Origin: Streptomyces sp. NBC_00341
GTDB lineage: Bacteria; Actinomycetota; Actinomycetes; Streptomycetales; Streptomycetaceae
Direction of reading: 5' to 3'
Assembly: GCF_041435055.1 (NCBI RefSeq)
Contig: NZ_CP108002.1
Span: forward strand, 4,278,001 to 4,342,000
Length of the DNA: 64,000 bases
Shown piece after piece: positions 17,487 to 37,002 of the stretch; position 1 is the stretch's first letter, and the number at the start of each line of letters is the position of its first letter. The translations under genes were made by a program, and so were the position numbers. The notes below the pieces were generated by a model, which had not been told where the DNA came from, searched no databases, and saw nothing but the letters and a program-made list of their open reading frames with translations.

Positions 17487-18818
17487 ATGGACGTCATCGC
17501 CGCCGCACCACCCGGTCCACCCGAGCCGGTCCTCACGAACGGCCCCGCCCCGGCCGCACACCCCGACCGCACCGTCGACGTCGCCGTCGTGGGCATCGGC
17601 TACGCGGGCCTGCCGCTCGCCGTGGCCGCCGCCGGGGGCGGCCACCGCACCCGCGGACTGGACCTGAGCGACTTCCTGGTGGCTCAGGTCAACATCGGCC
17701 GGCCGCCCGTCGACACGGTGACCCGTGCCGAACTGGACGCCGTGGCGCCGTTGCTCGACGCCACCACGGACCCCGCGTTCCTGAGCGAATGCTCCGTCGT
17801 CGCCCTGTGCGTTCCCACACCGGTGGACACCCACGGTGTGCCGGACCTGGAGCCCCTGCTCTCCGCCGTGCGCACGGTCCGCCAGCACCTGGTGTCCGGA
17901 CAGCTGGTGATCATCGAGTCCACCACCTACCCCGGGACCACCGACGGCGTCATCCGCGAGATCCTGGAGGAGTCCGGGCTGACCGCGGGCACGGACTTCC
18001 ACCTGGCCTTCTCGCCGGAGCGGGTGGACCCGGGCAACACCCGGTACGGCTTCCACAACACGCCCAAGGTGGTCGGCGGGCTGACCGCGGCGTGCGGTGC
18101 CCGCGCCGCCGCGTTCTACGCGGGACTGACCGAGCGGGTGCACGTCACCCGCTCCAGCCGTGAGGCCGAGGCCGCCAAGATCCTGGAGAACACCTACCGC
18201 CAGGTGAACCTGGCCCTGGTCAACGAGTTCGCGCAGATCTGCCACCGGCTGGGTGTCGACGTCTGGGAGACCATCGAGGCCGCCGCGACCAAGCCCTTCG
18301 GCTTCACCCCGTTCCGTCCCGGCGCGGGTGTCGGGGGCCACTGCATTCCGGTCGACCCGCTCTACCTCGTGCACCGCGCGACGCAGGCCGGGGTGCCGTT
18401 CCGGATGGCCGAGCAGGCGCAGCGGATCAACGACTCGATTCCCGTCTGGGTCGCCTCCCGGGCGCGGGAACTGCTGACGGCGAACAGGATCAACGTCCGT
18501 GGGGCCAAGGTGCTCCTGCTGGGCGTCACCTACAAGCCGGACGTCGCCGACATCCGCCACTCGCCGGCCGAGCCGCTCGCCCTCGAACTGCTCGGCGCGG
18601 GCGCCGATGTGATGTTCCACGACCCGTACGTCACCACGTTCTCCGCACGCGGCCGGGCCGTACCCGCCGGGCACGACCTGGTGGCCGACCTCGCCGCCGC
18701 CGACCTGACGATCGTCGTGCAGCGGCACCGGATGTACGACAACGGGCTCCTGGCCCACGCACGGCTCGTCCTGGACCCCTGCGGCCCCGGCACGACGCAG
18801 GAGGTCGGGACCGCATGA
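17487..18818 (+). CDS. Nucleotide-sugar 6-dehydrogenase (UDP-ManNAc/UDP-Glc dehydrogenase family)
   Basis: A 443-residue NAD-dependent dehydrogenase that should oxidise the C6 hydroxyl of a UDP-hexose to a uronic acid. A Rossmann motif GIGYAGLPLA lies at about 36-45 and FSPERVDPGNT at about 175. The catalytic Cys286 sits in GVGGHCIPVDPLYL, and the C-terminal domain has GVTYKPDVADIRHSPA. The GGHCIPVDP form is closer to WecC/TviB-type (UDP-N-acetylhexosamine) enzymes than to Ugd, but the substrate is not certain. Start ATG 17487 has AGGAG upstream. Its TGA overlaps the ATG of the NRPS gene (ATGA), so the two are coupled. It is the first enzyme gene of the island operon and would supply an activated uronic acid. 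Confidence 0.88.
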   Translation: MDVIAAAPPGPPEPVLTNGPAPAAHPDRTVDVAVVGIGYAGLPLAVAAAGGGHRTRGLDLSDFLVAQVNIGRPPVDTVTRAELDAVAPLLDATTDPAFLSECSVVALCVPTPVDTHGVPDLEPLLSAVRTVRQHLVSGQLVIIESTTYPGTTDGVIREILEESGLTAGTDFHLAFSPERVDPGNTRYGFHNTPKVVGGLTAACGARAAAFYAGLTERVHVTRSSREAEAAKILENTYRQVNLALVNEFAQICHRLGVDVWETIEAAATKPFGFTPFRPGAGVGGHCIPVDPLYLVHRATQAGVPFRMAEQAQRINDSIPVWVASRARELLTANRINVRGAKVLLLGVTYKPDVADIRHSPAEPLALELLGAGADVMFHDPYVTTFSARGRAVPAGHDLVADLAAADLTIVVQRHRMYDNGLLAHARLVLDPCGPGTTQEVGTA

Positions 18819-21800
18819 CCCACACCCCCTGCGTCGTGGACCTGATCCGCGGCCACGCGGCCGGCCGCCCCGCGGACATCGCCCTGCGGACCCCGGCGGG
18901 CACCATGACCTACGCCCGGCTGTGGAACCGCGCCGAGCAGGCCGGGCGGGCCCTCGCGGGACGCGGTGTACGGCGCGGCGACACCGTCCTCGTGCGCCTG
19001 CCCTCCGGCCCGGAGGCGGTCGTCGCCATGCTCGGTACCTGGCTCGCCGGCGCCGCGTTCGTACCCGTCGACACGGCGACCCCCGCGGAACGCCTGGCGT
19101 ACGTGCTCCGCGACAGCGGCGCCACCGCGGTCCTCGACGACAGCACGGCGCTCCTGCCGCCCGCCGGGGACCCGGTGGAGCCCGCCGGGGACCTGGTGGA
19201 ATCCGCCGGCCCGCGCACCGCGGACGACGAGCACGGCGCCTACGTCATCTACACCTCCGGGTCCACCGGAGCGCCCAAGGGAGTCCTGGTCGGGCACGGG
19301 GCGCTGGCGCGCCATGCCGACGCGGCCGTGGACCTGTTCGCGCTCGGGCCGCACAGCACCGTGCTGCAGTTCGCGAGCCTCGGGTTCGATGTCGCCCAGG
19401 AGGAGATCTGGCCGACCCTCGCCGCGGGCGGAACCCTCGCCTTCCACGGCGCGGACGGCGTCCCCGGCGCCGCTCAACTCGCCTCGGTCGCGCAGGAGCT
19501 GGGGGTGACGGTCCTGCAACTCCCCACCGCCTACTGGCGCATGCTCTGTGCGGAGCTCGACGGCGAGCGGGAGCCGTCCTTCGCCGGGGTCCGCACGGTG
19601 GTCATCGGCGGCGAGAACGCCACGACCGCCGACGCCCGCGCCCACCGCCGTACCCCCCTCGCGCACACCGTGCTGGTGAACGGGTACGGCCCCACCGAGA
19701 CCGTGGTCACCGCGACCGCCCTGGTGCTCGCCCCCGGCGACGAGGTGCCCGGCACGGACGGGCTGCCCATCGGGGAACCGGTCGGCGACCGGGTGGCACG
19801 GGTGCTGGACGAGGACGGCCGGCCCGTCGCCGACGGCGCACCGGGCGAACTGTGGATCGGCGGCGAGCCGCTGGCCCTGGGCTACCTCAACGACCCGGCG
19901 CGGACCCGGGAGCGCTTCCTGCCGGATCCGTACGCGGCGACGCCCGGCACGCGGATGTACCGCACCGGCGACATGGTGGTGCGGCGGGAGAACGGCGGCC
20001 TCGAATTCCTGGGGCGCGTCGACAACCAGGTGAAGGTCCGCGGCCACCGCGTCGAACTCGACGAGGTCGACCGCCACCTGCTCGGAGCCCCCGGGATCAC
20101 CTCTGCCGTCTCCTTCACCCTGGACGACGGGGCAGGCGGGAACGTGCTGGCGGCCGCCGTCGCCCGCGACGGGGACGGCCCGGACCCCCGGGCGGTCCGG
20201 GAGCACCTGCGGGAGCGGGTCCCCGCCTATCTGGTGCCGGGCCGCATCGCCGTACTCGACCGGATGCCCCTCACCACCTCCGGCAAGACCGACCGCCGCG
20301 CGGCGGCAGAGGCCGCGGCGGCCGTCCTGGCCGCCGGGGTGACGCACGAGCGCGACGACGAGGCGCGGTCACCGCTGGACACGGTGGTCGCCCTGCTCCG
20401 CGAACTGCTGCTCGCGCCGGAACTCGGCCCCGACGACGACTTCCTCGCCCGGGGCGGCGACTCCCTCATGGCCCTGCGCGTCTGCGGCCGGATGCGGGCG
20501 CGGGGCATCTCCATGACCCCCGGCGACCTGCTCACCGGGCGCACCGCCCGCGCCGCCCTCTCCCGGGCGGAGGGCCGCCGCGCGCCCGACGCCGTCGAGG
20601 AGGAGCCCGCAGGGCCGCTCGGCCTGCTGCCCGCCCAGCACCGCTGGCTGAGCGACGGCGAACTGCCGGCCCGCGACCACTTCTGCCTGAACGCGCTGTT
20701 CACCACGGACTCCGGCATGTCCGCGGACCGCCTCGTCCGGGTGGCCGGGGCCCTGCGACGACGCCACCCCGCGCTGCGCACGGCGCTCCGCGCGGACGGC
20801 ACGGCGGAGCTGCGGGAGGCCGACCCCGCGGACGCCGTCCGCGTCATCGACCTGTCCCCCGTCCCGCCGCCCGAGCGGGCCGCCCGGCTGGAAGAGGCGC
20901 TGGCCGAGGCGCAGACCTCGATGTCGCTCGCCGAGGGCCGGGTCCTTCAACTGCTGTACGTGGACGGCGCGGAGAACGGGGCCCGGCTGCTGCTGACGGT
21001 CCACCACTTCGTCCTCGACGGGGTGTCGATGGGCCTGCTCACCGACGACCTCGAACTGCTGCTGGGCGACGGCCGGACGGGAGCCGCCGCGACGGGGCCC
21101 CGGGCCGTCGGCACCGCGCTGCGGGACTGGGTGCGCACCGCGCAGGCCCGGCAGGACGCCGCCGAATGGGCCCTCAGGACAGGGGAGTTCACCGTGCTGC
21201 GGCCCGACGCGGAAGGCTCCGCGCCGCTGCCCACGCTGCGCACCCACCGCTTCCGGCTGCCCCGGGACCTCACCGGCCAGGTGCTCCACCGTCTCCCCGC
21301 CGCGGGCATCGCCCCGCACGACTTCGCCCTCGGCTGCCTGGTCGGCGGCCTGGCGGCCTGGACCGGGGAGCCCGTGCACGGGGTGGACGTCTACGCGCAC
21401 AGCCGCGGCGTGTCCCCCGGGGACCTCGACCTGTCCCGCACGGTCGGCTACGTACAGAGCACCTACCCGGCCGTCCTGCGGTGGGAGGGCGAGGGCGTCC
21501 CCGCACTGGCCGCCGCGCTCGGCGGGCCGGCCGCCCTGCCCGAACGCCGTTACGGGTTCGACGCGTTGCGCTTCCTCTCGCCCGATCCCGCGGAGCGCGC
21601 CGCCCTGGCGGCCTGCCCGCGTCCCCGGGTCCGGCTCAACTTCCGAGGGCATCTGCTGCGGCTGGAACAGCGCGCGCCGGGTGCGGTGCTGCGGCCCGCG
21701 GACGAGAGCTTCGGCGCCCACCGCTCGCCGCTCCAGCGGGAGCGCTATCTGCTGATGGCCGAGGGGGACATCGTCGACGGGGAGCTGGAGATGAGCCTGA

Positions 21801-21925
21801 AGTACTCCACGGTCCACTGGAGCGCGGAACGGATCGAGGAGCTGGCCCGGCACGTCGACCGCGTGATGCGGCAGACCCTGGACTCCCCCGACGCCGGCCG
21901 TCCGGTGAACGGCGGTGCGCGATGA
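18815..21925 (+). CDS. Free-standing NRPS: adenylation, carrier protein and C/E-superfamily domain
   Basis: A 1036-residue protein. The A domain spans about 1-505, with A3 YTSGSTGAPKG, A4 FDVAQEEIW (keeping the Asp that binds an alpha-amino group), A5 NGYGPTET, A7 YRTGD and A10 TTSGKTDRR. The PCP at about 520-590 has the phosphopantetheine Ser550 in GGDSL. The last domain, about 600-1015, has the active-site motif HHFVLDG (His730-Gly736). Its start GLLPAQHRWL and later GYVQSTYP and NFRGHL segments resemble epimerization domains more than canonical condensation domains. There is no thioesterase. My alignment by eye to GrsA gives pocket residues D-V-E-Q-V-G-G-V-T; I do not assign a substrate. 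It overlaps both neighbours by 4 bases. Confidence 0.85.
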   Translation: MTHTPCVVDLIRGHAAGRPADIALRTPAGTMTYARLWNRAEQAGRALAGRGVRRGDTVLVRLPSGPEAVVAMLGTWLAGAAFVPVDTATPAERLAYVLRDSGATAVLDDSTALLPPAGDPVEPAGDLVESAGPRTADDEHGAYVIYTSGSTGAPKGVLVGHGALARHADAAVDLFALGPHSTVLQFASLGFDVAQEEIWPTLAAGGTLAFHGADGVPGAAQLASVAQELGVTVLQLPTAYWRMLCAELDGEREPSFAGVRTVVIGGENATTADARAHRRTPLAHTVLVNGYGPTETVVTATALVLAPGDEVPGTDGLPIGEPVGDRVARVLDEDGRPVADGAPGELWIGGEPLALGYLNDPARTRERFLPDPYAATPGTRMYRTGDMVVRRENGGLEFLGRVDNQVKVRGHRVELDEVDRHLLGAPGITSAVSFTLDDGAGGNVLAAAVARDGDGPDPRAVREHLRERVPAYLVPGRIAVLDRMPLTTSGKTDRRAAAEAAAAVLAAGVTHERDDEARSPLDTVVALLRELLLAPELGPDDDFLARGGDSLMALRVCGRMRARGISMTPGDLLTGRTARAALSRAEGRRAPDAVEEEPAGPLGLLPAQHRWLSDGELPARDHFCLNALFTTDSGMSADRLVRVAGALRRRHPALRTALRADGTAELREADPADAVRVIDLSPVPPPERAARLEEALAEAQTSMSLAEGRVLQLLYVDGAENGARLLLTVHHFVLDGVSMGLLTDDLELLLGDGRTGAAATGPRAVGTALRDWVRTAQARQDAAEWALRTGEFTVLRPDAEGSAPLPTLRTHRFRLPRDLTGQVLHRLPAAGIAPHDFALGCLVGGLAAWTGEPVHGVDVYAHSRGVSPGDLDLSRTVGYVQSTYPAVLRWEGEGVPALAAALGGPAALPERRYGFDALRFLSPDPAERAALAACPRPRVRLNFRGHLLRLEQRAPGAVLRPADESFGAHRSPLQRERYLLMAEGDIVDGELEMSLKYSTVHWSAERIEELARHVDRVMRQTLDSPDAGRPVNGGAR

Positions 21926-22692
21926 CACCGCTCCCGCCCGTGGTCCCCGGCGTCCCGGCCGAGCACCAGCCCGCCCTGGGCAGCGCCCCGCGGTGGCCCC
22001 TGGTGCTGTACTTCCACCACGTGCACCCGGACGTGCGGCACTACACCGCGCTGTCCCCGGACGCGTTCGAGCGGGGCCTTGAGCAGGTGCTCGAACAGTT
22101 CGCCCCGTACGACCCGGCGGACCTGCTGGCCGACGGGGGCCCTCGCCGGCCCGACCGCCCCACGGTGCTCGTCACCTTCGACGACGGCTACCGCGACAAC
22201 ACCACCCACGCACGGGACATCCTGGACCGTCTCGGCGTCCGTGCGGTGTTCTTCGTCTGCACCGGACTGCTCGGCCGGCGCAGCCCCCGTCCGCGCGAGG
22301 ACCACCTGACGTACGAGGAGTGCGACCAACTGGCCCGGGAGGGGCACCTGATCGGCGCCCACACCCGTACCCACCCGCACCTCGACCGGATCCCGCCGGC
22401 CGAGGCGCGCGCCGAGACCCTGGGCTCCCTCGACGACATCCGCGAGCGGTACGGAGCGGGCCCCGCCCGGCTGTTCGCCTACCCCTACGGCGGGGTGCCC
22501 GCCGAACCGCTGCTGCCCGAAGGCGTGCTGGCCTTCGGAACGGTCCGCTCGCCCGCCACGCCGTGGACCGCGGAGCACCAGCGGATCCGCAGAACCTATC
22601 TGCCCTCGGGGGCGGCCGACACCTGGGCCGGGCTGGTCCGCCACTGGCGCACCGAGTGGGACGGACCGACCGCTTCCGGGAGGGAAGAGTGA
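21922..22692 (+). CDS. Polysaccharide deacetylase family protein (CE4 fold)
   Basis: A 256-residue protein with the NodB/CE4 homology domain. The metal/base motif is TFDDGYRDN (Asp pair at about 87-88), and the metal-binding His motif is HTRTHPHL (about 147-154). LFAYPYGG follows. No signal peptide is visible, so unlike peptidoglycan deacetylases it probably works in the cytoplasm, possibly de-N-acetylating an amino sugar or related amide intermediate (inference). It starts with an ATGA overlap at the end of the NRPS gene, and its TGA shares one base with the ATG of the MFS gene. An equivalent enzyme would make a free amine available for one of the ATP-grasp ligases. Confidence 0.85.
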   Translation: MTPLPPVVPGVPAEHQPALGSAPRWPLVLYFHHVHPDVRHYTALSPDAFERGLEQVLEQFAPYDPADLLADGGPRRPDRPTVLVTFDDGYRDNTTHARDILDRLGVRAVFFVCTGLLGRRSPRPREDHLTYEECDQLAREGHLIGAHTRTHPHLDRIPPAEARAETLGSLDDIRERYGAGPARLFAYPYGGVPAEPLLPEGVLAFGTVRSPATPWTAEHQRIRRTYLPSGAADTWAGLVRHWRTEWDGPTASGREE

Positions 22693-23987
22693 TGACCGAA
22701 CACAAGACGTGGCGCACCCGGCTGACCGGGGCCCTGCCCGCCACCAGGGAGTCCCGGATCATCGCGGTCAACGCGTTGATCGGCTCCATGGGAACCGGCA
22801 TGTTCCTGGCGAGCTCCGCCCTCTACTTCACGCGCTTCGCCGGAATCAACGAGACCCAGCTCGGCGTGGGCCTGGGGATCGCGGGAGTGGTCGGGCTCGC
22901 CACCACCGTGCCGATGGGCATGCTCGCCGACCGCTTCGGCCCCAGGAACATCATCCTGGTGGTCTGCCTGTGGCGCGCCATCGGCTACCTCGCCTACCTG
23001 AGGGTCGACGGATTCAGCCAGTTCGTGGTGACGGCCAGCCTGCTGTACATCATGGACCGGGCCGGACAGCCCCTGAACCAGGCCCTGGTGGGCCGCCTGA
23101 TCACCGGAACCGAACGCAACCGCACGATGGGATTCATCCGGTCCCTGCGCAACCTCGGCTTCACCGTCGGGTTCTCGCTCGCCGGGATCGCCCTGACCAC
23201 CAATTCGAAGACCGCGTTCCACTGGCTCTTCATCGGCAACGCGATCAGCTTCCTGGTGGTGTTCTCCCTCGTCTGGATGCTGCCCCGGGTCGGCCCGGCG
23301 GTGGCCAAGGACAAGGGGGACGGGAAGGGCGCGAAGGCGGTGGTCCCGCCGATCCGCGACTGGCGGTTCGTCGCCGCCACGGCGGCCAACGGGGTGATGT
23401 TCCTGCACGACGCGATCCTGATCACCGTGCTGCCGCTCTGGGTGGCGGAGCACACCGCGTCGCCCATCTGGATGATCACCGTCCTCGTCACCACCAACAC
23501 GGTCCTCACGGTGCTGGCCCAGGTCAGGGTGACGCGCCACATCGGCGACCTGGCCACCGCGACCCGGGCCACCACCATGTCGTCGGTCCTGTTGCTGTTC
23601 GCCTGCGTCGCCTTCGCGGCGAGCGGCTGGTCGGACACGTCCGGCTGGGCGATCGTGACCCTCGTGGCCGCACTGCTCCTGCTGACCTTCGGGGAACTGC
23701 TGCACTCGGCGTCGTCCTGGGAGATCTCCTTCGCGATGTCGCCGGAGGCGGCCCAGGGCCGGTACTTCGCCTTCTTCAACGTGGGTTTCTCGGCGGCGGA
23801 GATCGCCGGGCCGGCCGTGGTGCTGTGGCTCCTCGCCCGGACGGGACCGAGCGGCTGGCTGATCATCGCGGTCTGCTTCCCGCTGTCCGCGGCCCTGAGC
23901 TGGCTCGGCACCCGGCAGAAGCCGGAACCGGCCACCACCGGGCCCGCGCCGCACTCGGAGCCCGTACCCGCCACAGAGGGTTCCTGA
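22692..23987 (+). CDS. MFS transporter (probable product exporter)
   Basis: A 431-residue major facilitator with about 12 predicted helices. The loop 2-3 signature is MGMLADRFGPRN, and GRLITGTERNR and an ALSWLGTRQKP-type C-terminus are present. The start MTEHKTW is coupled to the deacetylase stop. Position inside the biosynthetic operon suggests export of, or self-resistance to, the cluster product. No drug specificity can be read from sequence. The 57-base gap to the next gene contains a short imperfect hairpin (about 24012-24024). Confidence 0.85.
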   Translation: MTEHKTWRTRLTGALPATRESRIIAVNALIGSMGTGMFLASSALYFTRFAGINETQLGVGLGIAGVVGLATTVPMGMLADRFGPRNIILVVCLWRAIGYLAYLRVDGFSQFVVTASLLYIMDRAGQPLNQALVGRLITGTERNRTMGFIRSLRNLGFTVGFSLAGIALTTNSKTAFHWLFIGNAISFLVVFSLVWMLPRVGPAVAKDKGDGKGAKAVVPPIRDWRFVAATAANGVMFLHDAILITVLPLWVAEHTASPIWMITVLVTTNTVLTVLAQVRVTRHIGDLATATRATTMSSVLLLFACVAFAASGWSDTSGWAIVTLVAALLLLTFGELLHSASSWEISFAMSPEAAQGRYFAFFNVGFSAAEIAGPAVVLWLLARTGPSGWLIIAVCFPLSAALSWLGTRQKPEPATTGPAPHSEPVPATEGS

Positions 23988-24044
23988 CCGACCGCACCGA
24001 CCCATTCCCACCCCTCGGTGGAATGCGCACTGACGGAGGAAAGC

Positions 24045-25337
24045 ATGTCAGACACACTCCCGCCCCAGCATCTCCTGATCGTCAGCGGCGGGCGCGATCT
24101 GCCCGATCGCGCCCGCGGCGCCTGGCCGGGACTGCGCACGACCGTCATCTGCCGGCCGGAGGTGGTGCCGCGGCTGCGCAGCCGGGAGAAGATCCAGCGC
24201 CTGATCGTGCTCCGCGAGGACGCCCCGGTCGAGGAGTGGGTGGCCGCGGCGCGGTTCGTGCACGCGGTCGACCCGGTCGACCGGCTGACCAACTTCACCG
24301 AGAAGGACACCGAGAAGACCGCGGCCATCGGGCTCGACCTCGGCCTCGACTGGCACAGCGCGGAGACGGTACGGGCGGTGGCCGACAAGTACGCGATGCG
24401 CCGGGTGCTGGCCGAGGCCGGGGTCGGCCAGGTCGTCGCCGAGACCGTCCACGACGTCGAGGGCGTCCTCAAGGTCGCGGAGCGGACCGGCTACCCGCTG
24501 ATCTGCAAGCCCGTGCGCGGGGTCGCCAGCAAGGGCGTCACCCGTATCGACGGACCGGCCGACATCCCCCGCGCCCTTGAGTGGGGCGCCGAGGGAGCCG
24601 GCGACCTGGACGCGCCGGACCTGCTCGTCGAACAGTTCCTGAGCGGCGACGAGTACAGCGTGGAGTGCGTCAGCGAGGACGGCGAGCACCTGGCCGTGGG
24701 CGTCACCCGCAAGATTTCCGAGCACGATCACTTCGTCGAGGTCGGCCACGTCGTCCCGGCCCCCCTTCCGGACGCGGACGACCAGCGGATCCGTACCACC
24801 GTGACCGACATGCTGACGGCCCTCGGAGTCCGGCGGGGCGTCACCCACACCGAGGTCATCGTGGCCGCGGACGCGGTCCACATCGTGGAGACGCACCTGC
24901 GTCCGGCGGGCGACGAGATCCCCGAGCTGTGGGCGCGGGTCAGCGGGGTCGACCTGATCGACGTCGTCGCCCGCCAGGCCGTGGGCCTCAAGGTCCTCGA
25001 CGGCCTCCGCGCCACCCTCGCCGCCCCGCACGACGGTCCGGGCGCGGCGGCCATCTGGTACGCCTGCCCGGACGCGGTGGGCGAGATCGTGGAGGTGGCG
25101 GGCGAGGAGGAGGCCCGCGCGCTGGAGGGCGTCGTCGACGTCGAGGTGCTGCGCGAACCGGGCAAGCGGCTCAAGGGAGTCACCGGTTCCTTCGCCCGGG
25201 GTGCACATGTCTGCGCGGTGGGCACGTCACAGGACGAGGCGTTGCGGCGTGCCCAGGAGGGCGTACGGAAACTGTCGTTCACCGTACGCAGTGACGGCAT
25301 GGCCGCACGCCACGAGGCGCTCGCCTCGACCGGCTGA
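24045..25337 (+). CDS. ATP-grasp ligase 1
   Basis: A 430-residue ATP-grasp enzyme of the carboxylate-amine ligase type. The N-terminal Rossmann-like domain runs to about 115. The ATP-binding subdomain contains YPLICKPVRGVASKGVTRI and the LLVEQFLSGDEYSVECV strand. Metal ligands lie in HTEVIV and IVETHLRPAGDEIPELW. A C-terminal domain (about 320-430) resembles those of carnosine synthase/BacD-like ligases. Start ATG 24045 is set by GGAGGA 6 bases upstream. These enzymes form an acyl-phosphate and then an amide bond. Substrates here are unknown. It is clearly paralogous to the ligase at 30891-32162 (shared HTE...IE.H.R.GGD/AGD.I.EL pattern). Confidence 0.85.
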   Translation: MSDTLPPQHLLIVSGGRDLPDRARGAWPGLRTTVICRPEVVPRLRSREKIQRLIVLREDAPVEEWVAAARFVHAVDPVDRLTNFTEKDTEKTAAIGLDLGLDWHSAETVRAVADKYAMRRVLAEAGVGQVVAETVHDVEGVLKVAERTGYPLICKPVRGVASKGVTRIDGPADIPRALEWGAEGAGDLDAPDLLVEQFLSGDEYSVECVSEDGEHLAVGVTRKISEHDHFVEVGHVVPAPLPDADDQRIRTTVTDMLTALGVRRGVTHTEVIVAADAVHIVETHLRPAGDEIPELWARVSGVDLIDVVARQAVGLKVLDGLRATLAAPHDGPGAAAIWYACPDAVGEIVEVAGEEEARALEGVVDVEVLREPGKRLKGVTGSFARGAHVCAVGTSQDEALRRAQEGVRKLSFTVRSDGMAARHEALASTG

Positions 25338-25809: not shown

Positions 25810-25822
25810 GCCGTGTCCGCAA

Positions 25823-29167: not shown

Positions 29168-30063
29168 GACTCGCCGTCATCAACGACGAACTGTCCCAGG
29201 ACATCGAGCAGGCGGCGGCCACGACGTCCCGCCTCGGCTTCGACGGACTGGAGATCCGATCCAGCGGCGGCGTGGCGCCGCATCGCATGGACGACGCCGC
29301 CCTGGCCCGAATACGGGCGACGGTGGCCCGGCACGGACTGCGGGTGGCCGGCTTCGACCCGCCGGCGCTGAAGTGCGAACTGCCCCGCACCGCCGCCGAG
29401 ACGGACTCCGCCCGCGCACTGGTGACGGACTCCGTGCGCCGGGCCGAGCTGCTCGGAGCACCGTTCGTCCGCATCTTCACCTTCTACCGGCAGGGCGATC
29501 CGGACCCCCGCCGGGCCGCCGCCGCCGCCCGGGAGGTACTGGACGGCGTCCCCCTCGGACGCGTCCCCCTGCTCGTCGAGACGGGCATGCGGACCAACAG
29601 CCCGACCATGCGCCACACCCTGGAGTTCCTGGACGCGCTGGGCGACGACCGGCTCGGCATCCTGTGGGATCCGGGCAACAGCGTCTTCAGCGGCTGGGAC
29701 CCGGCCCCGTTCCCGCAGGACTACGCGCTCGGCCGCGAACGCATCCGGCACGTCCACGTGAAGGACCCGGACGGCCGGCGGGCCTACGTCCGCCTCGGCG
29801 ACGGGGACCTGCCCTGGCCCGCGATCATCGCCCGGCTGGCCGAGGACGGCTACCGGGACTGGATCTCCCTGGAGACGCACTGGCGCGTCGGCCGGGTGCT
29901 GAACCAGGCGCAGCGGGACGAGCCGTGGGGCGAGGAGTTCACCGCCGGCGGATTCGAGGCCAGCAGCACCTGCATGCGGCTGCTCCGCGAGATGACGCGG
30001 AGCACGGGCGAGGACGCCGTCCCCGCCGGCCCCGACGCGCACACGGTGGAGGCCGGCGCATGA
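29164..30063 (+). CDS. Sugar-phosphate isomerase/epimerase family TIM barrel 2
   Basis: A 299-residue xylose-isomerase-like TIM barrel with an intact metal set: Glu in LLVETGMRTNSPT, Asp in LGILWDPGNSVF, His in RIRHVHVKDPDG and Glu in WISLETHWRVG. The N-terminus MRLAVINDELSQDI is the usual first strand. Related enzymes (IolE, IolI, IolH, hydroxypyruvate isomerase, 3-keto sugar epimerases) interconvert keto forms of sugars or inosose, which matches the preceding Gfo/Idh/MocA dehydrogenase. GTG start at 29164 overlaps the previous stop (GTGA). Its TGA overlaps the ATG of the sulfotransferase. Confidence 0.82.
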   Translation: MRLAVINDELSQDIEQAAATTSRLGFDGLEIRSSGGVAPHRMDDAALARIRATVARHGLRVAGFDPPALKCELPRTAAETDSARALVTDSVRRAELLGAPFVRIFTFYRQGDPDPRRAAAAAREVLDGVPLGRVPLLVETGMRTNSPTMRHTLEFLDALGDDRLGILWDPGNSVFSGWDPAPFPQDYALGRERIRHVHVKDPDGRRAYVRLGDGDLPWPAIIARLAEDGYRDWISLETHWRVGRVLNQAQRDEPWGEEFTAGGFEASSTCMRLLREMTRSTGEDAVPAGPDAHTVEAGA

Positions 30064-30860
30064 ACGACTCACCCGTGATCCTGCTCGGGGGCCAGCGCTG
30101 CGGCACCACCGCCCTCGCCTACGCGCTGAATCTGGCCTTCCACGACGCGGGCGGCCACTTCACCGTCAACGGCAAACTCCCCTATCTGCTGCACCGCTGG
30201 CTGAACCGGCAGGACCTGGCCGACCACCATCTGCGCACGGACGAGATCCTGCACGCCCTGGACCGCCGCCCGCCGGACGGCTCGGGCGTCGAACGCTGGC
30301 GCGCCCGGGTGGAACAGAGCCTGCGGGCCGCCGCCAGGGACGTCGCAGAGGGCTCGTGCGGAGACGACCCGGTGGACCTGGCACGGCGGATCCTGGCCGA
30401 CACCCAGGGCGAACTGCCGCACTGCGGGGACAAGTACAACGAGTACCTGCTGCATCTGCCCTGGTTCGGCGAGGTACTGCCGAACGCCCGCTACGTGATG
30501 CTGGTGCGCCACCCGGAGGAGGCCGCCCGCTCGATGCTGCGCTGGAAGGGCGACCGGCCCTATGTGCCCCTCACGCGGGAGGCCGCCCTCGCCAAGTGGA
30601 CGGCCTGGAACCGGCACTGGCTCGATTTCGCACCGGCGGTACCGGACCGGAACGCCCTGGTCGTCGAGTACCACGCACTGTGCCGGGGCGAGGAGACCGA
30701 GCGCCTGTCGCGGTTCACCGGACTCGACCTCGCCCCGTACCTCGCCGGGCTGAAGCCCCGTTCCCCGGCGGCGGACACCGACGACGCACTCCCGGCGGAC
30801 ACCGCCTCCGTGTGGGAGGCGCTGCGTCTCTCCGCGCTTCCCGCCCCCGCCCCCGCCTGA
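30060..30860 (+). CDS. PAPS-dependent sulfotransferase
   Basis: A 266-residue cytoplasmic sulfotransferase. The 5'-phosphosulfate-binding loop is GGQRCGTTAL (about 10-19), and the 3'-phosphate-binding region is YVMLVRHPEEAARSM (about 144-158) with Arg and Ser in the expected places. VVEYHALC and a C-terminal ETERLSRFTGL follow. It should move sulfate from PAPS to a hydroxyl or amine. The acceptor is unknown. Its placement upstream of cysD and cysN, which make the PAPS precursor APS, strongly supports a sulfation step in the pathway. Confidence 0.85.
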   Translation: MNDSPVILLGGQRCGTTALAYALNLAFHDAGGHFTVNGKLPYLLHRWLNRQDLADHHLRTDEILHALDRRPPDGSGVERWRARVEQSLRAAARDVAEGSCGDDPVDLARRILADTQGELPHCGDKYNEYLLHLPWFGEVLPNARYVMLVRHPEEAARSMLRWKGDRPYVPLTREAALAKWTAWNRHWLDFAPAVPDRNALVVEYHALCRGEETERLSRFTGLDLAPYLAGLKPRSPAADTDDALPADTASVWEALRLSALPAPAPA

Positions 30861-30890
30861 TCCGCCGAACCCCTACCGAAGGTGATTCCC

Positions 30891-32162
30891 TTGCCCTCAA
30901 CCCGTGTTCTCGTCGTCGGCGGAAAGGCCGGCATCGTCCGCAAGGCCGCAGCGCTCGGCCTCGACGTGGTGCACATCCAGAAGCCGTCCGCGTTCGACCC
31001 GGATGTGGTGGAGCACTGTTCGCAGCTGCTGCTCGTCGACTACCAGGACGTTCCCACCGTCACCGCCCTGGTGCGCGCCCTGCACGAACAGCGGCCGTTC
31101 GCCCGGGTCTTCACCCAGACCGAGGCGGCCCAGGTGGTGGCGGGCCATCTCACCGACGCGCTCGGACTGCCCGGCAACGGCGAGCGGACCACCCGGCTGC
31201 TGCACGACAAGCCGGCCCTGCGTGCGCTGCTGAACGAACAGGGCATCGGACCGGTGCGGACGGTGACCCGGCCGACCGCCGCCGAGCTGCGCGACTTCGT
31301 GAAGGCGGCGGGCTCCGCCGTGCTCAAGCCGACCATGGGCTCCGGCAGCCTGGGCGTCCGCCGGATCGCCTCCGTCGACGAGGTCGACGAGGCGTGGGCG
31401 TGGCGCGAGGCCTTCGGCCTCGACGACTTCATGGCCGAGGAGTGGCTGACCGGCGAGGAACTCAGCGTCGAGACGTTCTCCCGGGCCGGGGCGCACACCG
31501 TCGTCGCGGTGACCGGCAAGGAGACCGGGCAGGGCGTGGTCGAGCTCGGTCACGTGGTGCCCGCGCCGCTGGACGGAGCCGGACGAGAGGCCGTCGTGTC
31601 GACGGTCGAGGCCCTGCTGGACGCCGTGGGCCTCGTGGACGGGCCGGCGCACACCGAACTGATCCTCACCGCCGCCGGTCCCCGCGTCATCGAGTCGCAC
31701 AGCCGTCGCGGCGGGGACCGCATCAACGAACTGGTCCGCCTGGTCCACGGTGTCGACCTGGAGGAGGCCGCCTACCGGCTCGCCCTGGACGGCGACCCGC
31801 TGCCGCGCCGGGCGGAGCCGACGGGTGCGGCCGCCATCCGCTTCCTCGTCGCGGAGCCGGGAACCGTCACCTCGGTGACGGGCGCTTCGGAGGCCGAGGC
31901 GATGGACGGCGTCGTCCAGGTCGACGTCCAGGTCGAGCCCGGGGACACGGTGCACGAACTGCGCTGGTCGGAGGACCGCTGCGGCCATGTCGTGGTCCGC
32001 GCGGCCGACGCGCAGGCCGCCGTGCGGCTCGCCGCGGACGTCGCGGCCCGCATCGTGATCACCACGGAACCGGCCGCCGACGACGGGCGGTCCGCCACCC
32101 TCGGCACGCTCCTCGACGAGGTGGACGAGGTCCTCGACCCGTTCGCCGCGGCGTCCCGGTGA
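30891..32162 (+). CDS. ATP-grasp ligase 2
   Basis: A 423-residue ATP-grasp ligase, paralogous to the one at 24045-25337. It has an N-terminal domain (STRVLVVGGKAGIVRKAAAL), an ATP-binding region (GSAVLKPTMGSGSLGVRRI), FMAEEWLTGEELSVETF, metal ligands in HTELILT and VIESHSRRGGDRINELV, and a C-terminal lid-like domain. I prefer the TTG at 30891 because AAGGTG lies 7-12 bases upstream. A GTG at 30882 is in frame but its only purine tract is too close. It probably forms a second amide bond in the product. Confidence 0.83.
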   Translation: MPSTRVLVVGGKAGIVRKAAALGLDVVHIQKPSAFDPDVVEHCSQLLLVDYQDVPTVTALVRALHEQRPFARVFTQTEAAQVVAGHLTDALGLPGNGERTTRLLHDKPALRALLNEQGIGPVRTVTRPTAAELRDFVKAAGSAVLKPTMGSGSLGVRRIASVDEVDEAWAWREAFGLDDFMAEEWLTGEELSVETFSRAGAHTVVAVTGKETGQGVVELGHVVPAPLDGAGREAVVSTVEALLDAVGLVDGPAHTELILTAAGPRVIESHSRRGGDRINELVRLVHGVDLEEAAYRLALDGDPLPRRAEPTGAAAIRFLVAEPGTVTSVTGASEAEAMDGVVQVDVQVEPGDTVHELRWSEDRCGHVVVRAADAQAAVRLAADVAARIVITTEPAADDGRSATLGTLLDEVDEVLDPFAAASR

Positions 32163-32246
32163 CCTGCCGCGTCCCGCCGCACCCCACGAGCCCCGCCCGG
32201 CCCCCGCAGGTGGCCGCCACGAACGTCCGCAAGGAGTAGAACTGCG

Positions 32247-33068
32247 ATGAGCACGACACCCTCAGACGGCGGCAAGCAGGTCTCCGTCGTGGTCGCCACC
32301 CGGAACCGCCCCACCGACATCGACGCACTGCTGACCGCGATCGCGGCGTGCGACACGGGCATCGTCCACGAGGTGATCCTGGTCGACGACGCCTCGGAGA
32401 TCCCCCTGCGCGTCGACGAGTCGGCCCACCGCTTCCCCATCCGCCTGCTGCGCCACGAACGGCGTCGCGGCGCGGCGGCCGGCCGCAACCTCGCGGGCCA
32501 GGAGGCGACCGGCGACGTCCTGGCCTTCCTCGACGACGACGCCCGGCCCCTGCCCGACTGGTTCGACGTCCTCGATACGGCGCTCACCCCCGAGCGGGCT
32601 GCGATCACCGGCCGGGTGCTGCCGTTCGACAGCAGCGTGGTCTCACGCGCCCGCCAGTACCGCTACGAGGTCCGCTACGCACAGCACGTCCCCGGCAGCG
32701 AGGTCACGTTCTTCGCGGGCGGCAACTCGGCGGTGTGGACGGAGGCGTTCCGCGCTGCCGGGGGGTTCCCCGACCAGGTCACCGCGAGTGACAACGGTCT
32801 CGTGGAACGGCTCGCCGAGTCCGGCGGCCGGGTGCACTTCGTGCCGGGGCTCCGCGTGGCCCACCGCAACAGCAAGGGCGCCGGAATCGCGCTGCGCGAG
32901 GCCTGGCGCGCGGGCCGGCTGGCCCCGCGCAGCGCGCCCGCGTCCGCGCTGCGCCGGTTCGCGGCCAGCGCCCGGTCCCAGCCCTGGTCGGACGACCCGG
33001 CAGCCGCAGGCCTCAACCTGGGTCTCCAGGCGGCGAATTCACTGGCCACCGCCCTTCCGGCGGCCTGA
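32247..33068 (+). CDS. Family 2 (GT-A fold) glycosyltransferase
   Basis: A 273-residue inverting-type glycosyltransferase: VSVVVATRNRPTDID at the N-terminus, the nucleotide-binding VDDAS, RGAAAGRNLAG, the metal-binding AFLDDDARPLPDW, and FFAGGNSAVWTEAF. The usual catalytic ED before the acceptor helix reads SDN here (GGFPDQVTASDNGLVERL), which may change activity. No membrane helix is visible, so it probably acts on a soluble acceptor. It could use the uronic or amino sugar made by the first gene of the island (inference). It ends 3 bases before cysD. Confidence 0.83.
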   Translation: MSTTPSDGGKQVSVVVATRNRPTDIDALLTAIAACDTGIVHEVILVDDASEIPLRVDESAHRFPIRLLRHERRRGAAAGRNLAGQEATGDVLAFLDDDARPLPDWFDVLDTALTPERAAITGRVLPFDSSVVSRARQYRYEVRYAQHVPGSEVTFFAGGNSAVWTEAFRAAGGFPDQVTASDNGLVERLAESGGRVHFVPGLRVAHRNSKGAGIALREAWRAGRLAPRSAPASALRRFAASARSQPWSDDPAAAGLNLGLQAANSLATALPAA

Positions 33069-33071
33069 GCG

Positions 33072-34004
33072 ATGGCGAGTACGGGGGCAGTGCGCCGAGT
33101 GGACGCGGGAGCCACGCTCTCCCATCTGGACGTCCTGGAGTCGGAGGCGGTGCACATCTTCCGTGAGGTGGCGGGGGAGTTCGAGCGTGCGGTGATCCTG
33201 TTCTCCGGCGGCAAGGACTCGATCCTGATGCTGCACCTGGCGCTCAAGGCCTTCGCGCCCGCGCCGGTGCCGTTCACACTGCTGCACGTGGACACCGGGC
33301 ACAACTTCCCCGAGGTCCTGGAGTACCGCGACCGCACGGTCGCCGAGCACGGGCTGCGGCTGCACGTCGCCTCCGTCCAGGAGTACATCGACGCCGGGAA
33401 GCTCCGCGAACGCCCCGACGGCACCCGCAACCCGCTGCAGACCGTGCCGTTGACGGAGGCGATCCAGCAGCACCGCTTCGACGCGGTGTTCGGCGGCGGG
33501 CGGCGTGACGAGGAGAAGGCGCGGGCGAAGGAGCGGGTGTTCTCGCTGCGCGACGAGTTCTCCCAGTGGGACCCGCGCCGCCAGCGCCCCGAGCTGTGGC
33601 AGCTCTACAACGGCCGGCACGCCCCGGGTGAGCACGTCCGGGTCTTCCCGATCTCCAACTGGACCGAGCTGGACGTGTGGCAGTACATCGAGCGCGAGGG
33701 CATCGAGCTCCCGCAGATCTACTTCGCCCATGAGCGCGAGGTCTTCAGCCGCTCCGGCATGTGGCTGACCGCGGGCGACTGGGGCGGCCCCAAGGAGCAC
33801 GAGCGGACCGAGACCCGCCAGGTCCGCTACCGCACGGTCGGTGACATGTCCTGCACCGGCGCCGTCGACTCCGACGCCACCACCCTGGACGCAGTGATCA
33901 CCGAGATCGCCGCCTCCCGGCTCACCGAGCGGGGCGCGACCCGCGCCGACGACAAGATGTCAGAGGCCGCGATGGAAGACCGCAAGCGCGAGGGGTACTT
34001 CTAG
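33072..34004 (+). CDS. cysD: Sulfate adenylyltransferase subunit 2
   Basis: A 310-residue PP-loop ATP pyrophosphatase with FSGGKDSILMLHL (loop at 45-50), LLHVDTGHNFPE, FGGGRRDEEKARAKERVFS and the C-terminal RYRTVGDMSCTGAV. Together with CysN it converts sulfate and ATP to adenosine phosphosulfate (APS). It lies 2 bases upstream of cysN. In primary sulfur assimilation loci this pair usually accompanies cysC or cysH. Neither is present here, and the neighbours are a sulfotransferase and glycosyltransferase, so this copy probably serves product sulfation. Confidence 0.93.
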   Translation: MASTGAVRRVDAGATLSHLDVLESEAVHIFREVAGEFERAVILFSGGKDSILMLHLALKAFAPAPVPFTLLHVDTGHNFPEVLEYRDRTVAEHGLRLHVASVQEYIDAGKLRERPDGTRNPLQTVPLTEAIQQHRFDAVFGGGRRDEEKARAKERVFSLRDEFSQWDPRRQRPELWQLYNGRHAPGEHVRVFPISNWTELDVWQYIEREGIELPQIYFAHEREVFSRSGMWLTAGDWGGPKEHERTETRQVRYRTVGDMSCTGAVDSDATTLDAVITEIAASRLTERGATRADDKMSEAAMEDRKREGYF

Positions 34005-34006
34005 AG

Positions 34007-35347
34007 ATGACCGAGACGATTCAGCGGCCCGGCGTCAGACCGCCGGCGACCCTGTTGCGCTTCGCCACCGCCGGGTCCGTGGACGACGGCAAGTCCACCC
34101 TCGTGGGACGGCTGCTGCACGACTCCAAGTCGGTCCTCACCGACCAGCTGGAGGCGGTCGAGGACGCGTCCCGCAAGCGCGGCCAGGAGGCACCCGACCT
34201 CGCACTGCTGACCGACGGACTGCGCGCGGAGCGCGAACAGGGCATCACCATCGATGTCGCCTACCGCTACTTCGCCACACCCCGGCGCCGGTTCATCCTC
34301 GCCGACACCCCGGGCCATGTGCAGTACACCCGCAACATGGTCACGGGCGCCTCCACCGCCGAACTGACGGTGATCCTGGTCGACGCCCGCCACGGCGTGG
34401 TCGAGCAGACCCGCCGGCACGCGGCGCTGACCGCGCTGCTGCGGGTCCCGCACGTGGTCCTCGCGGTCAACAAGATGGACCTGGTCGACTACGCGGAACC
34501 GGTGTTCGCCGCAATCACCAGGGAGTTCACGGCGTACGCGGCCGAGCTCGGCATCCCCGCGGCCACCGCGATCCCGATCTCCGCGCTGGCCGGCGACAAC
34601 GTGGTGGAACCGTCCTCCCACATGGACTGGTACGGCGGCCCGACCGTCCTGGAACACCTGGAGACGGTCCCGGTCAGCCACGACCTCACCGACTGCCACG
34701 CCCGCTTCCCGGTCCAGTACGTGATCCGGCCCCAAACGGCCGAGCACCGCGACTACCGGGGCTATGCAGGCCGGATCGAGGCAGGGGCCTTCCGGGTGGG
34801 CGACGCGGTCACCGTGCTGCCGTCCGGCCGCACCTCGGCAGTCACCGGGATCGACCTGCTGGGCCGGTCCGTGCACACGGCGCGGGCGCCGCAGTCGGTC
34901 ACCCTCCTACTGGCGGACGACATCGACATCTCGCGCGGCGACCTCATCGTGCCGAGCACCGACGCGCCCCCCACCACCCAGGACGTCGAGGCGACCGTCT
35001 GCCACGTCGCGGACCGGCCCCTCACCGTGGGCCAGCGAGTGCTGATCAAACACACCACCCGCACCGTCAAAGCCATAGTCAAGGACATCCCCTCCCGCCT
35101 CACCCTCGACGACCTCTCCCAGCACCCGGCCCCCGGGCAGCTCGTCGCCAACGACATCGGCCGCGTCCTCGTACGCACCGCCGAACCGCTCGCGCTCGAC
35201 GCGTACGCCGACTCGCGCCGCACCGGCTCGTTCCTGCTGATCGACCCCGCCGACGGAACCACGCTCGCCGCCGGGATGGCGGGCGGTTCCTTCGCCGCCG
35301 CGGCCACCGGCATCCCCGAACCGGACGCCGCGGGCTGGGACTTCTGA
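34007..35347 (+). CDS. cysN: Sulfate adenylyltransferase subunit 1 (GTPase)
   Basis: A 446-residue translational-type GTPase that drives APS synthesis by CysD. G1 is GSVDDGKST (23-31), the switch II DTPGHVQYTRNM, and G4 NKMD. Two beta-barrel domains follow (HFPVQYVIRPQ-type and a later barrel ending in FLLIDP). The length excludes a fused CysC APS-kinase domain (CysNC proteins exceed 600 residues), so PAPS formation needs an APS kinase encoded elsewhere. It starts 2 bases after cysD and is followed 1 base later by the ABC ATPase gene. Confidence 0.93.
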   Translation: MTETIQRPGVRPPATLLRFATAGSVDDGKSTLVGRLLHDSKSVLTDQLEAVEDASRKRGQEAPDLALLTDGLRAEREQGITIDVAYRYFATPRRRFILADTPGHVQYTRNMVTGASTAELTVILVDARHGVVEQTRRHAALTALLRVPHVVLAVNKMDLVDYAEPVFAAITREFTAYAAELGIPAATAIPISALAGDNVVEPSSHMDWYGGPTVLEHLETVPVSHDLTDCHARFPVQYVIRPQTAEHRDYRGYAGRIEAGAFRVGDAVTVLPSGRTSAVTGIDLLGRSVHTARAPQSVTLLLADDIDISRGDLIVPSTDAPPTTQDVEATVCHVADRPLTVGQRVLIKHTTRTVKAIVKDIPSRLTLDDLSQHPAPGQLVANDIGRVLVRTAEPLALDAYADSRRTGSFLLIDPADGTTLAAGMAGGSFAAAATGIPEPDAAGWDF

Positions 35348-35348
35348 G

Positions 35349-36110
35349 ATGACGGGGCACAACACCACGGCCGTCGAGGTCTGCGGCGTCACGAAGGGGT
35401 ACGGCACGGGTGCGGCCCGTCGCGTCGTGCTGGAGGACGTCGATCTGCGGCTCGCGAAGGGCGAGTTCGTGTGCGTCGTCGGTGCCTCCGGTTCGGGCAA
35501 GTCGACCCTGCTCCACCTGGTCGCCGGGCTGGAGACGGCGAGCGCGGGGAGGATCTCCGTCACGGGCGGACGTCCCGCCGTGATGTTCCAGGACCACGCC
35601 CTGTTCCCGTGGCTCACGGCGGGCCGGAACGTCGAACTGGCGCTCCGCCTCGCGGGCGTCCCACCCGGCCCCCGCCGCGACCGGGCCCGGAGCCTCCTCG
35701 CCCTGGTGGGGCTCCCCGAGAACTACGGGCACCGGGTGCACGAGCTGTCCGGCGGCATGCGCCAGCGGGTCGCCCTGGCCCGTGCCCTGGCGCAGGGCGC
35801 GGACGTGCTGCTGATGGACGAGCCGTTCGCGGCGCTCGACACCGTGACCCGGGGGACGCTGCACGGCGAGCTCGTCCGCGTCTGCGCGGAACGGGGGGCG
35901 ACGGTGCTCTTCGTGACCCACGACGTCAGGGAGGCCGTGGCGCTGGGGGACCGCGTGGTGCTGATGGCGCCGGGGCCCGGCCGGGTGGTGGCCGAGTGGT
36001 CCGTCGGCCCCCGCTCCGCGCGAGGCGCCAAGGCCCCGGACGCGGCCCGTCTCGTCGACGAGATCACGGCCCGGCTCGGCGAGGAGGCCGACCGCCGTGC
36101 CCGCTGTTGA
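35349..36110 (+). CDS. Sulfonate/nitrate/taurine-type ABC transporter ATPase
   Basis: A 253-residue ABC ATPase of the SsuB/TauB/NrtD class: Walker A VVGASGSGKST (about 44-53), the class-specific Q loop MFQDHALFPWLT, signature LSGGMRQR, Walker B VLLMDEPFAALD and the switch His in FVTHDVREAV. It energises uptake of sulfonates, sulfate esters or similar anions. It overlaps the permease gene by 14 bases. The normal partner substrate-binding lipoprotein is absent from the visible cluster. Placement directly behind cysDN suggests it feeds sulfur to sulfate activation. Confidence 0.88.
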   Translation: MTGHNTTAVEVCGVTKGYGTGAARRVVLEDVDLRLAKGEFVCVVGASGSGKSTLLHLVAGLETASAGRISVTGGRPAVMFQDHALFPWLTAGRNVELALRLAGVPPGPRRDRARSLLALVGLPENYGHRVHELSGGMRQRVALARALAQGADVLLMDEPFAALDTVTRGTLHGELVRVCAERGATVLFVTHDVREAVALGDRVVLMAPGPGRVVAEWSVGPRSARGAKAPDAARLVDEITARLGEEADRRARC

Positions 36111-37002
36111 CAGCGCGGCCCGCCCGGCGAACGCGCTGCCCGACGGAGCCGGGCGGCCCGCCTCCGGCCGTACCCGGGAGTCGCCCGGCGGGGGCTTTCG
36201 CCGAGGCCTGACCGGAGCAGCGGTGAGGCGCCTCGCGGCCCGCGTCGGGCCGGGCTGCTCTGCGGTCCTGTTGGTGGCGGGCGTCTGGCAGCTGGTTCAC
36301 CTGCTCGGACTGTCGCCGGTGCTGCCCGCACCGGCGGCGGTCCTGCGCGACCTGTCCGACGCCTGGTCCGCGGGGACGCTCGGCCCAGGACTGCTGCACA
36401 GCCTGGGCCGCTGCCTCGCGGGGTTCGCGGCGTCCGCGGCGGTGGGGGTGCCCCTCGGTCTGCTGCTGCACCGGTTCGGGTTCCTGCGGGTGCCCCTCGC
36501 TCCGGCGCTGAGTGCCTTCCAGTCACTGCCGGCGGCGGTCCTGGTGCCCATCGCCGTGATCTGCCTCGGCACCTCGCAGGCCGCGGTGTACCTGGTGGTG
36601 CTCCTCGGCGCCGTTCCCTCGGTGGCGACCGGGGTCCTCACCGCGCTGGACCAGGTGCCGCCGCTCCTGGTGCGGGCGGGCCGGACCATGGGGGCGACGG
36701 GAGCGGCCGGGGTGCGCCACGTCCTGCTTCCGGCCGCCCTGCCCGGTGTGGTGGCCGCGCTCCGGCAGGGCTGGGCGTTCGGCTGGCGGGCCCTGATGAC
36801 GGCGGAGCTCATGGCGTCCACCCCCTTGCCCGGCCTCGGCCAGGTGCTCGACGCCGGGCGGCGCAGCGGTCGCCTGGGCCCGGTGCTGGCCGCCGCCCTG
36901 GTGATCCTGGCCGTCGGGGTGGTGGTCGAGACGGGGGTCTTCGGACCGGTGCAGCGCCGGGTCCTGCGCGCCCGCGGCCTGCCCGCAGCACAGGAGCGGT
37001 GA
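36097..37002 (+). CDS. Sulfonate-type ABC transporter permease
   Basis: A 301-residue integral membrane protein of the SsuC/TauC class with about six helices after a 45-residue polar N-terminus. It carries the permease EAA-type loop GRTMGATGAAGVRHVLLPAALPG, followed by GWAFGWRALMTAELM. It partners with the preceding ATPase (14-base overlap, GTG start at 36097). No substrate-binding protein gene follows. The next gene is convergent and belongs to the core chromosome, so this is the last gene of the island. A start within the frame further downstream cannot be excluded. Confidence 0.87.
   Translation: MPAVDSAARPANALPDGAGRPASGRTRESPGGGFRRGLTGAAVRRLAARVGPGCSAVLLVAGVWQLVHLLGLSPVLPAPAAVLRDLSDAWSAGTLGPGLLHSLGRCLAGFAASAAVGVPLGLLLHRFGFLRVPLAPALSAFQSLPAAVLVPIAVICLGTSQAAVYLVVLLGAVPSVATGVLTALDQVPPLLVRAGRTMGATGAAGVRHVLLPAALPGVVAALRQGWAFGWRALMTAELMASTPLPGLGQVLDAGRRSGRLGPVLAAALVILAVGVVVETGVFGPVQRRVLRARGLPAAQER

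Follow-up and report, generated by a model that had tools for sequence, protein, structure and literature searches.

The window analysed here, a stretch of 64,000 nucleotides forming part of the 9.06-Mb genome of a Streptomyces strain, carries a block of co-directional genes in which predicted sugar-modifying, aminoacylating, sulfating and export functions are combined. This raises the question of what such a gene set may produce, and of how it came to be located at this site. A first-pass annotation of the same DNA had described the block as an insertion of approximately 20 kb encoding an undescribed pathway for a sulfated and exported, sugar-bearing aminoacyl compound.

Extent and insertion site of the island

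Gene calling and domain scans identified seventeen genes between positions 17487 and 37002, all on one strand. Sixteen had been counted previously, although the genes listed at the time sum to seventeen; the family names, gene order and single strand given then all stand. With the start codons chosen in the present analysis, on which the junction figures depend, eight of the 16 junctions in this run are overlapping, four have gaps of 1 to 21 bp and four have gaps of 57 to 123 bp. Homology to six relatives in which the site is empty breaks off at 15841-15917 and is regained at 37051-37055, and the island and its first two genes are delimited as follows:

15918..37050, no strand assigned: whole island, outer limits (flank homology to six empty-site relatives)
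16061..17050, + strand: A, LuxR-type regulator with a GerE helix-turn-helix at the C-terminus (PF00196, 36 bits)
17270..17434, + strand: small secreted-type peptide of 54 aa, ending in DNGWW (hydrophobic short-ORF search; 6/6 loci)

Since the left homology break is located at 15841-15917, the regulator and peptide genes fall within the island, which then totals approximately 19 genes. The start at 17487 given in the first-pass annotation must therefore be moved upstream, while the insertion itself is upheld by the empty site in the six selected relatives and by the distribution of the sulfotransferase. The latter is found in at least 8 of 295 genomes of the genus, own genome included, a lower bound as 8 candidates were scored per genome. 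The island is thus not core, and a conserved pathway of all Streptomyces, which would have contradicted the earlier proposal, is at odds with both observations.

A pirin match is present in 30 of 31 genomes and an ACAD match in all 31 (own genome counted), and 17 of the 18 same-genus relatives searched carry both on one contig. The two are 21.7 kb apart in the window and 0.26 to 1.0 kb apart in nine of these 17 relatives; the six empty-site relatives were selected from these nine, and all six join pirin, SseB and ACAD without the island. In the other eight of the 17 the interval measures 1.8 to 7.3 kb, and the site may accept other DNA too. Relative G179 harbors the island at the same place and with the same flanks as the window, while no match to any tested flank gene was found in the stretch around the island in G107, G204, G025 and G230. 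Island copies are also present on linear plasmids, and a variant is carried by pFRL2. The lack of flank-gene matches in these four relatives, together with the linear-plasmid copies, indicates that the island moves between sites.

Sugar, acylation and transport genes

Nine genes of the run encode predicted sugar-modifying, amino acid-activating and transport proteins, where fractions refer to the 24 related loci described below:

17487..18818, + strand: B, nucleotide-sugar 6-dehydrogenase, nearer UDP-HexNAc than UDP-Glc types (TIGR03026, 371 bits over cut-off)
18815..21925, + strand: C, stand-alone NRPS with A-PCP-C domains (PF00501, PF00550, PF00668)
21922..22692, + strand: D, CE4 deacetylase (PF01522, 83 bits; 24/24 loci)
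22692..23987, + strand: E, MFS exporter (PF07690, 99 bits; 20/24 loci)
24045..25337, + strand: F, ATP-grasp ligase of the L-amino acid ligase type (PF13535; PF18603, LAL_C2)
30882..32162, + strand: M, second ATP-grasp ligase (PF18603, 82.5 bits; PF13535, 53.7 bits)
32247..33068, + strand: N, family 2 glycosyltransferase, GT2 (PF00535, 74 bits; 24/24 loci)
35349..36110, + strand: Q, ABC transporter ATPase (PF00005, 99 bits)
36097..37002, + strand: R, ABC transporter permease (PF00528, 58 bits)

The B protein is matched by UDP-ManNAc/GlcNAc dehydrogenase models at 207 to 232 bits, compared to 168 bits for AglM and 107 bits for TuaD, all of these scores being under the equivalog cut-offs. As the UDP-HexNAc models outscore the UDP-glucose models, B likely forms a HexNAc-uronate. 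A UDP-dehydrogenase is encoded in 11 of the 24 related stretches, many of which are cut, and the uronate may therefore not be universal in the family. The SGSTG, GGDSL and HHFVLDG motifs of the NRPS are intact. A tRNA-Ser predicted by ARAGORN within the GT2 gene (32886-32980) is most likely a false positive; ten related stretches show no such call, and one of the ten has a different tRNA call elsewhere.

VOC, oxidoreductase and isomerase-like proteins

The centre of the run encodes a series of small-molecule enzymes, including one fusion protein (H), here divided into its N- and C-terminal parts:

25405..25809, + strand: G, small VOC protein (profile match to 2qqz, 145 bits; 23/24 loci)
25933..26427, + strand: H-N, decayed ABC-type P-loop domain fused to Ldh (alignment; ABC_tran in relatives)
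26431..27477, + strand: H-C, Ldh_2 dehydrogenase (PF02615, 321 bits; 22/24 loci)
27474..28418, + strand: I, Gfo/Idh/MocA oxidoreductase (PF01408, 64.5 bits; 24/24 loci)
28415..29167, + strand: J, sugar-isomerase-like protein of an unnamed family (relatives by sequence; 23/24 loci)
29164..30063, + strand: K, AP_endonuc_2 TIM-barrel protein, ketose-3-epimerase-like (PF01261, 110 bits; 24/24 loci)

As a single sequence, G has no Pfam or NCBIfam match at E ≤ 0.001. A profile of 12 homologues, however, scores 145 bits against 2qqz, a solved chain of the glyoxalase family, and on this account the VOC label proposed previously is correct. The Ldh fusion reported at the same time also exists, and the partner of Ldh_2 can now be specified as a decayed ABC-type P-loop domain. 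By alignment, read by eye, an N-terminal domain of this type is fused to Ldh in the window and in 19 of the 24 relatives; it forms a separate gene in G029 and L047, Ldh occurs alone in L045, and no Ldh was seen in the stretches of G014 and L044. No Pfam match was obtained for H-N of the window, while ABC_tran scores 26.6 to 36.8 bits (cut-off 25) in three tested relatives drawn from the five loci that keep the Walker-A pattern (L034, L035, L036, L038 and L039). H-N has the appearance of a degenerating ATPase domain that is becoming a structural element. Neither H-N nor J has a match in PHROGs.

The Ldh_2 profile matches 1vbi (228 bits), the sulfolactate dehydrogenase 2x06 (212 bits) and the delta1-piperideine-2-carboxylate reductase 1wtj (188 bits), and fails to separate malate, sulfolactate, ureidoglycolate and piperideine-carboxylate enzymes. 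A role of the Ldh in sulfolactate synthesis was considered and rejected, as NF040650 scores 169 bits, below its 500-bit cut-off, and the sulfolactate enzyme is not the best profile match. The best matches of the Gfo profile are 3e18, 3q2i and 3q2k (79-92 bits), the latter two of which we take to be WlbA, a UDP-GlcNAcA 3-dehydrogenase, and glucuronide-3-dehydrogenase and inositol dehydrogenases are also matched. Enzymes of these types make 3-keto-sugar or cyclitol chemistry plausible for the island. The solved enzymes matched by the Ldh_2 and Gfo profiles differ in their substrates, and the acceptor can thus not be named, a cyclitol being merely one of several options.

Two TIM barrels had been reported in the block. 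For K this is confirmed by PF01261, while J has no Pfam match and no profile match in the PDB, a single-sequence PDB search gave one weak match (E 0.078), and the likeness of J to its neighbour K lies in motif order alone, as read by eye. Among the 8000 best word-sharing candidates, 80 relatives of J were recovered, all at E ≤ 3.4e-51, and the source names seen for these are "hypothetical protein" except for one generic isomerase label. In K, residues E139, D169, H196, H198 and E237, presumably metal ligands, are invariant in 18 aligned rows. Against the K profile, solved D-tagatose 3-epimerases score up to 45 bits, with lower scores for a 2-hydroxy-3-keto-glucal hydratase (24 bits) and IolI (22 bits); a literature search on Art22, a solved relative of K, returned nothing relevant. 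The K family is wider, with 565 proteins at E ≤ 1e-25, and the best 120 of these include the Paenibacillus and Priestia entries P0198, P0200 and P0213 (44-51%).

Predicted sulfation and PAPS supply

Three further genes encode a sulfotransferase and the two subunits of an ATP sulfurylase:

30060..30860, + strand: L, sulfotransferase (PF13469, 51.6 bits, scanned within a longer ORF, 29040-30860)
33072..34004, + strand: O, CysD, ATP sulfurylase subunit (PF01507, 155 bits)
34007..35347, + strand: P, CysN, ATP sulfurylase GTPase subunit (PF00009, PF22594)

The QRxGTT start and the R..P...S region of L, presumably its 5'- and 3'-phosphate-binding stretches, are conserved in eight aligned rows, as expected of a PAPS-dependent sulfotransferase; a single-sequence PDB search with L gave no match. 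The supply of PAPS recurs with the sulfotransferase across loci. A cysC gene is located between the GT2 gene and cysD in all six of the relatives' gaps scanned and in the annotated plasmid copy, and cysC, cysD and cysN are all present in an Allokutzneria variant. In the window, cysC is absent, with 3 bp between the GT2 stop and the cysD start, and no APS kinase domain was found in CysN, so that the island does not itself encode a complete APS/PAPS supply. The only cysC match found in this genome lies at 7.18 Mb, near a second cysDN, and PAPS formation in this strain must therefore use the core CysC.

The island CysD is 99% identical to the core CysD of the genome over 296 aa. When compared in 150-base steps, positions 33114-34013 share 94-100% identity with the core copy, versus 80-92% with the G179 island copy, while over 33114-34613 the corresponding values are 86-100% and 80-96%. 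As 33114-34013 is nearer to the core copy than to the island copy of G179, the comparison suggests that the island cysD was converted by the core copy of the genome, an event which was perhaps also the cause of the cysC loss.

Distribution and an eight-gene core

A set of 24 related loci was compiled from seven genus genomes, 15 contig loci and two plasmids, some of them closely related to each other (e.g., L036 and L038), and the individual genes were located in these by tblastn (E ≤ 1e-5); the scan of genome contigs identified at least 15 loci. The set comprises actinobacteria, the two linear plasmids and one Blastocatellia MAG. Eight genes constitute a core, encoding the CE4 deacetylase, VOC protein, Ldh_2, Gfo/Idh/MocA enzyme, the two TIM-type proteins, sulfotransferase and GT2. 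It is complete in 20 of the 24 loci, while seven genes are present in the remaining four (G014, L037, L044 and L045), and it spans 4.8 to 12.7 kb. The CE4, Gfo, second TIM-type and GT2 genes occur in all 24 loci, the VOC and first TIM-type genes in 23 and Ldh_2 in 22; the sulfotransferase served to retrieve nearly all of the loci and scores 24/24 for that reason. With seven or eight core genes together in all 24 loci across distant hosts, the family has the distribution of a specialised-metabolite cluster. Of 396 genomes from the whole phylum, at least 2, that of this strain included, have a K profile match at E ≤ 1e-60, a lower bound as 6 candidates were scored per genome.

Additional genes vary around this core. 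An NRPS A domain is encoded in 17 of the 24 loci, the first and second L-amino acid ligases in 11 and 10, the UDP-dehydrogenase in 11 and CysD in nine, and since many of the stretches are cut, the absence of an add-on is weak evidence. An MFS match is found in 20 of the loci, with several at no more than 28-42% identity. Genes of the phenylacetate-CoA-ligase type and of an enolase-like type accompany another variant, and further ones carry a thioesterase, a P450-like gene, or an FMN dehydrogenase or deformylase.

Relation to described clusters and compounds

The closest counterpart of the island considered here is located on a 439-kb linear plasmid of S. albidoflavus (NZ_CP109227.1, L046), where the gene order from B to R is the same, at 58-88% identity and with generic annotation. 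It differs in the cysC gene between GT2 and cysD and shows neither LuxR A nor the DNGWW peptide within the stretch; its neighbors include a large NRPS gene and a PKS of type I, and the record names no product. In mycothiol biosynthesis, a pseudodisaccharide is formed by glycosyl transfer, deacetylated at nitrogen and ligated to an amino acid, with MshA of the GT4 type and MshB of the LmbE type among the enzymes. The island follows the same logic of glycosylation, deacetylation and ligation. However, its enzymes are of the GT2 and CE4 families instead, sulfation takes the place of a cysteine thiol, and it is not core. The ascamycin cluster likewise couples a PAPS-dependent sulfotransferase to a cluster-borne ATP sulfurylase and APS kinase; its product is, however, a nucleoside sulfamate, and the accessible portion of its description mentions no counterpart of the eight-gene core (PMC9113183).

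Sulfating biosynthetic clusters are a known kind, while the core, its pattern of add-ons and the peptide appear new within the literature searched. That search, confined to the open literature and thus without MIBiG and most subscription papers, found no cluster with this combination of genes, in line with the earlier remark that the combination was not recognised. The spread of the family over many genera makes a known member quite possible, and the compound could already have been described under another name, with its cluster held in MIBiG or the subscription literature. We regard this as unlikely, though it is the alternative that survives best, since the accessible parts of the open literature on the gene set yielded other compounds, including a glycopeptide, and no such cluster, and since the J relatives bear hypothetical or generic names.

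Somewhat less probable is a product resembling the bulgecins. The Gfo enzyme, TIM barrels and Ldh_2, the last in the role of a cyclic-imine reductase, would form bulgecinine or another imino-sugar acid, GT2 would add the aminosugar, L would sulfate it and a ligase would add the amide. The available portion of the source describes the bulgecins as sulfated glycopeptides built on hydroxymethylproline and leaves the location of their gene set open (PMC5472815). The likeness, a sulfated aminosugar linked to an amino-acid part, is drawn from the compound and not from a comparison of genes. The Ldh_2 profile match to 1wtj would agree with this chemistry; 1vbi and 2x06, however, score above 1wtj, and we consider a bulgecin-like product rather doubtful in comparison with an aminoacylated aminosugar glycoside.

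A LuxR-type regulator and a peptide with a conserved DNGWW ending

Orthologues of regulator A occur at the same place in five relatives (69-91% identity), and L042 encodes a distant LuxR (30-31%). The interval between the LuxR gene and B was searched for hydrophobic short ORFs, the ending not serving as a criterion. An ORF of 52 to 61 aa ending in DNGWW was recovered in all six loci with such a gap (the window, G179, G107, G204, G025 and G230), together with unrelated ORFs in G107 and G204. The secreted type of these peptides was judged by eye and is weak in the G204 copy; on this reading a secreted-type propeptide gene lies beside the regulator in all six loci with regulator A, the arrangement of a peptide-signal pair. 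When the six peptides are aligned with that of G015, invariance is confined to M1 and the five C-terminal residues. A DNGWW coding pattern followed by a true stop occurs seven times in the 295 genus genomes, in the six clusters and in G015, TGG-ending and DDGWW sites that also matched the pattern having been left out of the count. A database search with the peptide returned 18 proteins (E ≤ 10), every one of which terminates in DNGWW, a count that is biased because words of the ending help retrieval.

We suggest that the DNGWW peptide is probably a signalling propeptide, although the lack of both regulator and peptide in the L046 stretch, and of the ending in the stretches of the core-only variants, speaks against this. 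To our knowledge, few such peptide signals have been described in Streptomyces. The accessible literature on peptide signals contained no Streptomyces system of the kind, and the sole occurrence of the letters DNGWW, in a needle-therapy trial, is unrelated as judged from its title and abstract. The genome of the strain encodes five LuxR paralogues of A (27-31%); four of these were checked for adjoining secreted-type peptides, and the short ORFs there were unconvincing.

In G015 (L091, 8602-9731), the DNGWW peptide gene directly precedes a homologue of the Gfo gene (55% identity). The neighborhood comprises a LuxR-type gene, NRPS parts, an MFS gene and an SAM synthetase, and represents a different NRPS-type setting. 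This adjacency, along with an invariant C-terminus on an otherwise variable peptide, might also be expected if the peptide were processed into the product, as a ribosomal peptide, instead of serving as a signal. Such a role is, however, very unlikely: the core is retained in the plasmid copy as well as in the variant clusters, no GWW-stop ending was found in the stretches of the core-only variants examined, neither LuxR A nor a GWW-stop ORF is present in the L046 stretch, which reaches upstream of B, and the G015 Gfo homologue has EAP where the others have EKP.

Proposed product and significance

The gene content and the recurrence of the core in 24 loci agree with the sulfated and exported, sugar-bearing aminoacyl compound that had been proposed, the structure itself being a prediction. 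We consider it reasonably probable that the island is a horizontally mobile, undescribed cluster whose product is an exported, sulfated and aminoacylated aminosugar glycoside, with the chemistry read from enzyme families. B would oxidise a UDP-HexNAc to the uronate, while I, J, K and H-C, perhaps with G, would either remodel the sugar or form the acceptor, a polyol or an imino acid. Sugar and acceptor would be linked by GT2 (N), the CE4 enzyme (D) would free an amine, and the NRPS (C) and the ligases F and M would place amino acids onto amines. Sulfate would be added from PAPS by L, with O and P supplying the APS precursor and the core CysC the second step, before export by E; Q and R probably import a sulfur source, and the control of expression probably falls to regulator A together with the DNGWW peptide of secreted type. 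The order of the biosynthetic steps is a guess. Points against the model are the UDP-dehydrogenase and CysD genes, seen in 11 and nine of the 24 stretches, the missing cysC of this copy, and the plasmid copy with neither regulator nor peptide.

Nod-factor genes (nodBC, nodH and nodPQ) likewise direct a GT2, a CE4 deacetylase, a sulfotransferase and a dedicated ATP sulfurylase to one aminosugar compound, all four of which have counterparts in the island, which differs in its amino-acid ligases and NRPS; no NodA-type acyltransferase family was found among the island genes scanned (E ≤ 0.001). That the genes decorate a cell-surface glycan in Nod-factor or capsule fashion, with no small molecule released, is nevertheless the least credible alternative, as the NodB-family match of 28.6 bits falls far below the 240-bit cut-off, no polymerase or flippase family is present among the island genes scanned, and the NRPS, ligases and MFS exporter suit a released metabolite.

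More speculatively, and with considerably less confidence than we place in the glycoside itself, the core may build a new class of sulfated aminosugar scaffold that is furnished with host-specific amino acids, the chromosomal Streptomyces form being switched on by a novel type of secreted signal, the pentapeptide DNGWW, read by the LuxR-type regulator. The presence of the core in many actinobacteria and one Blastocatellia MAG, together with swappable acylation modules, points to a family of sulfated, sugar-based natural products that has likely gone unexplored, and complete copies on both chromosomes and plasmids make this family movable and testable. If DNGWW is indeed a signal, it would provide a simple chemical inducer for silent Streptomyces clusters.
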